Assembly (NCBI GenBank): GCA_943788115.1
Contig: CALSPA010000011.1
Coordinates: 1-64,000 of the forward strand
DNA: 64,000 bases
Origin: an uncultured Flavobacteriales bacterium
GTDB taxonomy: Bacteria; Bacteroidota; Bacteroidia; Flavobacteriales_D; Parvicellaceae
Direction of reading: 5' to 3'
Shown one piece after another: positions 27,906 through 58,294 of the stretch (position 1 is its first letter; each line of letters starts with the position of its first letter). The position numbers and the translations under genes are program-made. The notes beneath the pieces were generated by a model, which searched no databases, had not been told where the DNA came from, and saw only the letters and a program-made list of their open reading frames with translations.

Positions 27906-27964
27906 AATTAATATTTACGTTGAAAATGTCATTTCTACATAAATATATGATTTTTTCAAAAAAA

Positions 27965-43170: not shown

Positions 43171-44921
43171 ATGTCAGAAGAAAATTTCATAGTATCAGCC
43201 TTAAAGTATAGGCCCTCAGAATGGGATGCTGTTGTAGGACAAAAAACTATTACCACAACTCTTAAACAGGCTATTGAAACTAATCAGCTTGCAAAGGCTT
43301 ATTTGTTTTGTGGTCCTAGAGGTGTAGGGAAAACTACTATTGCCAGAATTTTTGCTAAATCGATTAATCAATCTATTGGTAATGCTCAAGATGATTTTTC
43401 TTATAATATTTTTGAGCTGGATGCTGCTTCAAATAATTCTGTTGATGACATAAGAAACATAACAGATCAAGTTCGTATTCCTCCTCAAATAGGTGATTAT
43501 AAGGTTCATATCATTGATGAGGTACACATGCTTTCACAAAGCGCTTTTAATGCATTTTTAAAAACATTGGAAGAGCCACCAAAACATGCAGTTTTTATTC
43601 TCGCAACAACTGAAAAGCATAAAATTATACCAACTATATTATCTAGGTGTCAAGTTTATGATTTTAGTAGAATAACCATTAATGATATTGCCGATCATTT
43701 AAAAATGATTGCTGATAAGGAAAATGTTAAAACTGAGTACCAAGCCTTGTTAGTTATAGCCGAAAAAGCTGATGGAGCCTTAAGAGATGCCCTTTCATTA
43801 TTTGATCAAATGGTTAATTTTTGTAATAAAGACATTACTTATGATGCTGTTATTAAGAATTTAAACATTTTAGATCACGAATATTTTTTCAAAATGACTC
43901 AGTCATTTAATGAAAATGATATCCATTCTTGTTTGTTGTTGTTCAATGAGATTCTGTTAAATGGTTTTGATGGTCAGTTGTTTTTAAATGGCTTAGGAAA
44001 TCACATGCGAAACCTTTTGGTTTGTAAAGATGCATCAACTTTATCTCTTCTTGAGTGCAGCGATGATGTTAAGAAAAAGTATCAGGATCAATGTGCTTTA
44101 ATAAAATCTAAAGAGATTGTTGATTCTCTGAACATAATTGGTGAAGCTGATGTTCAATACAAAATCAGTAAAAATCAACGTTTGCATGTTGAGCTATCTT
44201 TAATGAAACTTGCTTCTCTGAATTTGTCGGCCGAAAAAAAAAAGTCAATAAATTTGAAATAATTCCTCCTTTAGCTTCCCGTCAATTAAGAGCTACTAAA
44301 GAAGAGCCTTCTTCAAAAGACAGTTTAAAAGAAATAGAGAAGGTAAAAGACGAAGTCTCTAAAGATGTAAATGAAAGTGTTTCAACTCAAGCTCCTTCAA
44401 AAAAAGAATTTCATCATGCTCTTCCAGTAAAAAATAAAAAATTAAAATCTAGAAATCCTTCGACTTCTATTTATAAAACGCAAGAAATATTAAAGAAGAA
44501 AAATGCTATTAAGACAGAAGAGGAAGACATGTCAAATAAACCCTCTACTGCTTTTACTTATGAAGAGCTGATGAAATTTTGGCTTGAGTTTTCAGAAAAA
44601 TTAAAGGCCAAGGGAAAAGGAGGGATGCACGCTACTCTCAACAAATATAAACCAAAGCTGAACGCTGAAGATTTTTCTGTGGATTTTGACGTTGATAGTG
44701 AATTGCAAAAAATTGAATTTCAACAACAGAGCCAAGATTTTATGAGCTTTATTCGTAAGTCATTAGATAATTATAGCATTCAGCTTAATATTAATGTACT
44801 TGCTCTAGATGAAACTGTAAAGGTTCACTTAGGAAGTAAAGATAAATTCCTTAAAATGGTTGAGAAAAATCCTGATTTAGATATTCTTAGAGAACAATTT
44901 AATTTAGATATTGAATATTAA
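43171..44921 (+). CDS. dnaX: DNA polymerase III subunit gamma/tau; zero frame ends at 44262, tau-like extension (to 44921) in the -1 frame
   Basis: RPSEWDAVVGQKTI, GPRGVGKTTIARIFAK, ELDAASNNSVDDIRN, IIDEVHMLSQSAFNAFLKTLEEPP. A10 run at 44234-44243 then G; -1 frame reads EKKKVNKFEIIPPLASRQLRATKEEPSSKDS...TEEEDMSNKPSTAFTYEELMKFWLEF... Confidence 0.93.
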
Positions 44922-54975: not shown

Positions 54976-55905
54976 ATGAAAAAATATATAACTCTTCTAG
55001 TTTTTTCTTTTATTTACTTAAGTTTTTTTTCGCAAACTCAATTAGATAATCCTGGTTTCGAAAATTGGGAAAATGCTGGAACTAGTTCGGATGAGCCAAC
55101 TGACTGGAGTTCAATAAAGACTTCTGATGATCCAACTTTAAGTGGGTTTGCTCCTGTTGTTTGGGCTCAAAGCTCAGATGCTCATTCGGGCAACTATTCT
55201 CTTGAAATGACTAACGTATCTACGTTTGGTGTTGTTGCAAATGGTACAGTTACAAATGGTCGAATACATGCTGATTTCAACCCCAGCCTGGGATATGTAT
55301 TTACTGATCAAACAGATGATACTTGGAATCAATCATTTACTGATTCCCCTGATAGTTTGGTAGGTTGGTATAAGTATAATCCATCTGGTAATGACAAGGG
55401 AAAGGTTGAAGCTGTTCTACATACAGATGACGCTCAGATCCCCGAAAATGGTACTGCTGCGTAATTGGGTAGGTAGAGCTAGAGCTGATTTCACGTCTAA
55501 TGTTTCGAATTGGACTAGATTTTCAGTTCCTTTCAATTATTATAATTCAACAACCCCTACTTACATTCTTTTAGTTCTAACCTCGGGCGACAGCACAATT
55601 GCTGTTAATGGAAGTCAGCTTTTACTTGATGATTTAGAACTTATATATTCCCCATCTTCTTTAAATGAAATAGATTCACCAATTAAATGTTGGTTTTCTA
55701 ACAACATTTTGCATACTGGAATTAACCCTTCATTAAATTCTTATTCTTTAAATGTTTATGATATTAGTGGTAAACTTGTTCTTAATGAGCAAGTTAGTTC
55801 ATATCCAGTCAAAAGAATTTCATTTAGATTTTACAAAAGGTATTCTATCTTGTCAATTTAAGCAGTGAAACTCAGAATCAAACTTTGAAAATTATAGTTC
55901 AATAG
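54976..55905 (+). pseudogene. PCMD-like secreted protein with T9SS type A sorting domain, frameshifted
   Basis: DNPGFENWENAGTSSDEPTDWSS N-term; frames joined give ...NWVGRARADFTSNVSNWTRFSVPFNYY...SLNVYDISGKLVLNEQV...NLSSETQNQTLKIIVQ*. Confidence 0.7.
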
Positions 55906-55906
55906 G

Positions 55907-58294
55907 TTGCGATTTGCATTCATATATCTAATTATTTCCTTCTCTTTAAATTGCCTTGGTCAGTCTAGAGGAACTTTAAAGGGTGTTGTTAAGGATAAAT
56001 CTTCTAAAGAAGAACTTTTCGGTTCAAATATATTTTTGCTCAATTCCCCTGAATTTGGTGCTTCTGCTGATTTGAATGGCGAGTTTTCATTCTCTGTTCC
56101 TGCTGGATCTCACAAGTTTGTGGTTTCATTTGTTGGGATGAAAAACGATACAATAGAGCTTAACCATTAATCCAAATGAAATTAAAAAGATTGAGATCTT
56201 TTTGCAGTCAATGGAAGAAGTCTTGGGTGAGGTTGTTGTTACCGCTGGAAAGTTTAATCATAAGATTGAAGACCTGACTATTTCAATGGAAGTTATTCAA
56301 CCGGAGTTGATTCAAAGTAAGAACACTCGTTCTGTAGAAGCAGTCCTTGATCAAACTCCTGGGTTAAATATTTTAGATGGTGAGCCCCAAATTAGAGGTG
56401 GTAGTGGCTTTACATTTGGGGTTGGTAGTAAGGTGGCTGTTTTAGTCGATGATATGCCAATGTTGTCAGGAGATGCTGGGAGACCAGAATGGGGTTTTGT
56501 GCCTGTAGAAAACATCCAGCAAATAGAAGTAATTAAAGGTGCTGCATCTGTACTTTCGGGAGCTTCAGCCTTAAGTGGTGTCATACACATTAAAACAGCT
56601 GAACCAACTCTGGATCCTGTTACAAAATTTAGCGTTTATTCAGGGTCTGTATTCTTCACCGAAAGATGAAAACCATGAAATGGTGGGATGACCATCCTTA
56701 CATTCATGGTGCGAATTTCTTACATTCTAGGAAAATTAAGAATTTTGATTTTGTATTGGGCGGGATGATGAACTTTGATCACGGATATATTGGCGCTCCT
56801 ATAGCAGATCCTCTTGTGGTGGATACTGCTACAAATTTTTCAGATAACAAAATGTCATCTGAAAAAGTTAGAATGAATTTTAGTGTTAGGTACCATCCAC
56901 CTAAAGTTGAACGATTAGTTTTTGGCTTAAGTGGTAATGCCATGATTTCTAATACAAATATGGTGTTGGCTTGGTTAAATGATACGGCAGGCATTTATAG
57001 AGCTTATACTGGTGGAGTTATTTTACAAGATCAAACCATTGTGAATATAGATCCGTATTTAAGTTTTTTTTCCAAAAAGGGCGGTAAACACATGCTGAAA
57101 TCCAGGTTGCTTTACACTAATAACGAGATGACTAATAATCAATCCAATCAAGCAAAAGTTTATTATGGTGATTATCAATTTAAAAGAGCATACAAGAAAT
57201 TACAAGATTTAGAATTTATTTGCGGTGTTTCTTCTACTCTTACATTAAGTGAGGCGCAATTGTATAGTGGTTCGGGGTCTCCAAATAATTCATTGTTGAA
57301 TTTATCTGGGTATTCGCAATTAGAGAAACTAATTAAAGAAAAACTTAGAGTTTCTTTTGGTTACAGGGCAGAATATTATAAACTCAACGATTCTATTGAG
57401 AATTCAGCCAGTATTATAAGGGGAGGTTTGAATTATAAAATCACTGAAGGAACAAACTTGAGAATGTCTTTTGGTCAAGGTTATAGGTTCCCAACAATTG
57501 CAGAACGATTTATAAAGACATCCGTTGGTTCATTTGGTGTTTTTGACAATCCTAATTTACAGCCTGAAAGAAGCTGGAACATGGAGGCTGGATTTAGACA
57601 GGGATATAAAATAGGAGAATTTATGGGCTATTTAGATGTTGCTGTTTTTAAGCAAAGCTATATAAATACAATTGAGTATTTATTTGGGTTTTGGGACCCC
57701 TCTTTTGCTTTAGCTGGGTTTAAATTTTTAAATACAGGAAAATCAGAAGTTAAAGGTGTAGATTGTTCTTGGGCCGGCAAATTAAATATAAACTCAAAAA
57801 ATAAAATTCAATTTATTATAGGTTATAATTATATACTGCCTAAAGCTCTAGAGCCTGATTTGATTTTTGCTGAAGATGTTGTTCACGAATACAGTTACAA
57901 TAATTCAAGTTTAGATTCAACACAGAGGTTACTTAAGTATAGATTTAAACACAGTTTTAAATTTGATCTTGAATATAAAAGAAAAGATGATTTTGCAATT
58001 GGAGTGAGTGCTAAATATTTTAGTAGAATTGAAAACCTAGATCGTTCTATTGAAGAGTTTGAGTCTGCAACTTTAAACACTGGCGGTACGCTTCAACCTG
58101 TATTGTACATGGATTATTTCAACAACTCCAATAATGGTAATTTAATTCTAGATGCAAGAGTTAGTTATCAATTTAGAAAGTTGCATAAAGTTGCAATTAT
58201 TTCAAGTAATATCTTAAATAGAACATTTTCATTGCGTCCTTTAAAAGTGGAGCCTATGCGAACTATTATGTTTCAATATTCAGTGTCAATATAG
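55907..58294 (+). pseudogene. TonB-dependent receptor, split by frameshifts near 56160 and 56650
   Basis: CarboxypepD repeat + plug (VLDQTPGLNILDGEPQIRGGSGFTFGVGSKVAVLVDDMPML) + barrel ORF 56666..58294; joint reads IELTINPNEIKKIEIFLQSMEEVLGEVVVTAGKF. Confidence 0.8.

Follow-up and report, generated by a model that had tools for sequence, protein, structure and literature searches.

In the window, i.e., the whole 64,000-nucleotide stretch of DNA analyzed here, the dnaX gene occupies positions 43171–44921 of the forward strand and is encoded in two reading frames with a break at a run of ten adenines (A10). The zero-frame ORF (43171..44262, forward strand) encodes a gamma-type DnaX protein of 363 aa, comprising the AAA+ ATPase, the lid and domain III; ATG 43171 is a more likely start codon than TTG 43159. 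The run of exactly ten As was read from the sequence at 44234..44243, and the zero frame at the junction is GCC GAA AAA AAA AAG TCA ATA AAT TTG AAA TAA, with the TAA stop codon ending gamma (44260..44262) six codons past the run. The heptamer A_AAA_AAG (44238..44244), a possible additional site of ribosomal slippage, lies in the zero frame. In the +1 frame, a TAA codon at 44249..44251, also read from the sequence, would end third-frame products. The −1 frame is open from 5′ of the run through 44918, with its stop at 44919–44921, and encodes after the run the tau-specific C-terminal region of about 225 aa (44245..44921, forward strand). The preliminary description had placed a frame break of dnaX at the in-frame heptamer within the A10 run, with a gamma-like zero-frame product ending at 44262 and the tau region continuing in the −1 frame to 44921; all of this was confirmed.

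The zero-frame protein matched the DnaX N-terminal model TIGR02397 with 377 bits and covered positions 2–370 of 614 in the full-length gamma/tau model NF011531. Its Pfam matches were DNA_pol3_delta2, DNAX_ATPase_lid and, weakly, DNA_pol3_gamma3, and the assignment is also backed by the solved E. coli gamma/tau. The N-terminal part of this ORF is common to gamma and tau. The −1-frame tail covered positions 407–613 of 614 in NF011531 (E 4e-20), which is the last third of the model, and is homologous to the tails of relatives with a single ORF as well as of those with the −1 or +1 frame. Together, the gamma part and the tail make up about 583 aa; single-frame DnaX proteins of family relatives are 575–594 aa long. 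A profile search found no second DnaX above the model cut-off elsewhere in the genome.

The cysteine (zinc) module of DnaX domain I was absent in the window (43330–43410). It is also missing from most families of the order and from families f16, f17, f30, f32 and f41 of the phylum (f1, g1, etc. are the family and genus code labels of our genome search), and is retained in f4, f8 and f10. This module has apparently been lost from the clamp loader more than once.

The gene was compared with its relatives in a set of 242 parsed dnaX genes, 129 of them from the order and the remainder from the phylum. In accordance with the A10 run of the window, 9–11 As were present at the homologous position in 126 of the 129 genomes of the order and in 209 of the 242 genes parsed in the phylum. 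Close to the end of domain III, the longest stretch of As measured 9 in 24, 10 in 162 and 11 in 23 genes; shorter runs of 2–7 As were found in 33 of 242, and a length of 8 in none. The base following the run is variable among relatives, being G, T or C; what is conserved is therefore the A9–A11 run and not A_AAA_AAG: AAG stands at the heptamer position in only 59 of the 92 −1-type genes and is absent from the other 33. The +1 and single-frame genes retain the A run too.

The frame of the tau region is far less constant. Among the long-run genomes of the order, it was 0 in 43, −1 in 59 and +1 in 24, and among those of the phylum 0 in 89, −1 in 92 and +1 in 25. At least 27 changes of frame state were required on the DnaX tree (206 rows), 14 of them within the order, compared with about 75–90 when the labels were shuffled; the states are thus inherited, yet often flipped. 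The comparison of run length and frame offset among relatives, suggested in the preliminary description, therefore gave a divided answer: the run is kept, while the offset drifts among 0, −1 and +1. Measured over the first 129 genes, the nearer of the two non-tau stops lay at a median of 1 codon after the run and the farther at 5; elsewhere in these tails, the medians were 5 and 19 codons. These close stops occur in both non-tau frames whichever frame is tau, as expected if every non-tau mRNA should yield gamma.

The only genomes of the order without the long run are three members of a single family, f8. Genome G249 (L163) keeps the split with the site C-A7-G, an E. coli-like A_AAA_AAG. Genomes G202 (L173) and G261 (L182) keep the split with no evident slippery site, having GTATCTTAAG at the junction. 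Two dnaX matches were present in genome G042, a 589-aa single frame (G042:C49, L047) and one at a contig end (G042:C27, L276), which is probably a strain mixture or a split contig.

The preliminary description had considered one A dropped from the homopolymer by an assembly or sequencing error, the real gene being a single ORF. Homopolymers are error-prone, and at 55.4–56.7 kb the window differs from both genus relatives by single bases that break frames. However, the nearest relative, G001 (JAQWSL010000086.1), an independent assembly with a DnaX 97% identical to that of the window, carries the identical A10 run, split and offset. Splits at such runs were also found in nine single-contig genomes (G004, G108, G114, G126, G146, G191, G253, G255 and G269), and the short stops in both other frames are retained, which an error would not do. 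Since relatives share the A10 run and the split, a missing A is refuted for this lineage, and we give this explanation almost no credence. Gene fission or a pseudogene, with gamma and the tail made as separate proteins or tau lost, is scarcely more credible, although G202 and G261, two members of f8, show the split in the absence of a run. The −1-frame tails of the window genome (G000) and G001 were aligned over 225 codons with no gaps and gave a dN/dS of 0.156, with 43 of 77 differences at third positions (dN/dS of the gamma part, 0.035), which argues that the tail is under purifying selection in the −1 frame and against fission. Moreover, the tau frame of split genes offers no start codon early on: a median of 92 codons passes before an ATG, which makes translational restart unlikely. 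The interleaving of the three frame states on the tree and the agreement of the joined length with that of single-ORF relatives also speak against fission.

A lysine-rich sequence can produce such a run by chance: for an unchanged protein sequence written in the codons that the gene itself uses, the probability is about 0.28 per gene. A single case therefore means little, and the argument is carried by conservation. Besides the dnaX run, the window contains a single A10/T10 run, at 27958 in an intergenic gap, and the 2.68-Mb genome contains 33 exact A10 runs on both strands, only a handful of them well inside long frames. Another exact A10 of the same genome lies at residue 238 of a 365-aa frame (L200 around 1501, G000:C5:187063) and is a possible second slippage site.

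Several ORFs at 54976–56670 of the window are pieces of a PCMD-domain gene and of a TonB-receptor-like gene (CarboxypepD_reg, Plug, barrel), broken by single-base differences from G001 and G002 outside long homopolymers; this stretch reflects local gene decay or poor consensus. The similar indels noticed earlier in other genes of the window are only partly borne out: one-base differences exist at 55.4–56.7 kb, but they lie outside long homopolymers and are not conserved. Located in ordinary sequence and unshared, they are unlike the dnaX split.

Our analysis indicates that dnaX is very probably a functional gene that directs the synthesis of two clamp-loader proteins by programmed transcriptional slippage at the A10 run. 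RNA polymerase would stutter on the ten As and produce mRNAs of mixed run length. An mRNA with ten As, or with ten plus a multiple of three, would lead the ribosome to the nearby stop and yield gamma; an mRNA with one extra A, or with two fewer, would bring the tau region in frame and yield tau of about 583 aa. Because slippage would supply all three frames, indels of one base beside the run would be almost harmless, which may explain why the tail changes frame from relative to relative even though the run and the stops flanking it persist. What the sequences themselves show is the split, the conservation of the run, a tail that is conserved and under selection, three states of the frame and stops close to the run; from these, we infer RNA polymerase as the slipping enzyme and the synthesis of gamma and tau, as well as the ratio between them. 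Efficient slipping of bacterial RNA polymerase is documented for runs of nine As (PMC1088944, PMC5009743), with Thermus dnaX as the worked case, and a change of direction among orthologues was used by Antonov et al. as a criterion for transcriptional realignment (PMC3711429). A homopolymer of fixed slippage length, a free frame direction and stops in both other frames are what transcriptional slippage needs. Against slippage alone, G249, G202 and G261 of f8 keep the split without nine or more As, so slippage on such runs is not the sole route.

A programmed −1 frameshift of the ribosome at A_AAA_AAG, on the E. coli model but with the products reversed, so that slipping ribosomes would read into tau, is improbable as the main mechanism. 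The heptamer is in frame in the window and in 59 of the 92 −1-type genes, and a single tRNA-Lys (UUU) was found in the closed genome of the family relative G004, as in E. coli. However, an upstream Shine–Dalgarno (SD)-like element was absent in the window, and there was no stable downstream stem-loop (−5.2 kcal/mol, z −0.68), whereas the E. coli site, analyzed for comparison, gave −19.4 kcal/mol with AGGGAG and the stem-loop visible. The absence of AAG from 33 of the 92 −1 genes, a run of ten bases exceeding what the heptamer needs, the inability of −1 shifting to serve the +1 genes and a shift direction not conserved among orthologues (−1, 0, +1) also stand against it. Slippage of RNA polymerase is likelier than shifting of the E. 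coli type because the run is conserved and the heptamer is not. Thus, the programmed gamma/tau reading proposed earlier is supported, while A_AAA_AAG as its key element is not. Ribosomal −1 slippage on the same run may add to tau in the −1 genes with AAG, the window gene included. No excess of downstream RNA structure was detected in any frame state. We also considered two tRNA-Lys species as an argument against ribosomal shifting; this was unsupported, one tRNA-Lys being present in closed G004, and no tRNA-Lys was recovered in the incomplete G000 assembly.

If RNA polymerase is indeed the slipping enzyme, the direction of slippage may in some lineages be steered by nascent RNA, and hairpins 5′ of the run were analyzed in this respect. 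The +1 form needs one A lost or two gained. A hairpin whose 3′ side ends 0–2 bases before the run was predicted for this form in nine of nine genera (families f1, f5, f9, f10, f13 and f17), compared with a fraction of 0.21 expected from the remainder of these genes and with 0.46 for the other states. In the window, no hairpin abuts the run on its 5′ side (−1.0 kcal/mol, ordinary for the gene). Compared with the remainder of the gene, hairpins abutting the run are overrepresented (mean percentile by genus, 0.27 vs. 0.5). The hairpin as a general stimulator was rejected: dinucleotide-preserving shuffles gave a clear excess in the +1 form only. On the tree, about two of seven independent pairs agree with a link between the +1 form and the hairpin and none are opposed, too few for significance. 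Compensatory stem changes were not found in the f1 clade, and one pair was seen by eye in f17 (G169). The same stem occurs in all three states in f17, with a third-base constraint of 0.67 vs. 0.35. This constraint was raised just 5′ of the run in f9, f13 and f17, above that of every other 9-codon window in the gene; no rise was seen there in f8, f26 or the whole of f1. Hairpin steering of slippage is thus a lead suggested by predicted structures.

A reversed two-ORF dnaX with A10 and predicted transcriptional realignment was reported by Antonov et al. in 2013 (PMC3711429). As in those genes, the window has a zero-frame gamma, a −1-frame tau and A10 at the junction, the arrangement is conserved among relatives, and the tail of the window gene is under protein-level selection. 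Their genes, however, were 17 from 12 genera and all of the −1 type (PMC3711429), whereas here the run occurs in most sampled families of the phylum, together with single-frame and +1 forms. In Thermus thermophilus, dnaX undergoes transcriptional slippage at A9 (Larsen et al. 2000, as cited in PMC1088944 and PMC5009743). As far as these accounts describe it, the Thermus gene resembles the window in a poly-A run of at least nine As, near stops in the other frames and one gene for gamma and tau, and differs in that its tau is a single zero-frame ORF and slippage gives gamma, while the window gene has gamma templated and would rely on slippage for tau. The free frame relation among the dnaX orthologues studied here also fits slippage of the Thermus type, and the Thermus-like templated tau, not present in the window, was found in 89 long-run genomes of the set. 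With E. coli dnaX, the window gene shares A_AAA_AAG and the same two products, but it has neither the SD stimulator nor the 3′ stem-loop, and has A10 instead of A6. The polarity of its products is reversed relative to E. coli, as the preliminary description had proposed; the analysis supports this. In Roseiflexus IS630, a 5′-adjacent nascent stem-loop causes the loss of one base, according to the review in PMC5009743. In that outline, it is similar to the +1-type relatives, all of which carry a predicted hairpin immediately preceding the run, and differs from the window, which lacks such a hairpin and has a homopolymer instead of T5C5.

The reversed two-ORF dnaX with A10 is therefore already published, and the window gene is a further member. 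The phylum-wide frame drift, the +1 form and the run-abutting hairpins in several lineages are apparently new: no prior report of a phylum-wide run with a drifting frame or of a +1 form was found in the main texts of the largely open-access papers searched. A broader proposal, which we judge equally likely to be right or wrong, is that dnaX is "frame-free" in most sampled Bacteroidota-like families: an ancestral A9–A11 site of RNA polymerase slippage would make the frame of the second half irrelevant, so that gamma and tau would repeatedly replace each other as the templated product, and in several lineages a 5′ nascent-RNA hairpin would steer the slippage, being required where one A must go (+1). 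DnaX is encoded by a basic replication gene that is a textbook case of recoding, and slippage of this kind would account for dnaX looking frameshifted or partial in assemblies of these bacteria. The whole order and much of the phylum would represent a natural experiment separating transcriptional slippage from ribosomal frameshifting, and sister sites with frames 0, −1 and +1, with and without the 5′ hairpin, would offer a test bed for the direction and efficiency of slippage.
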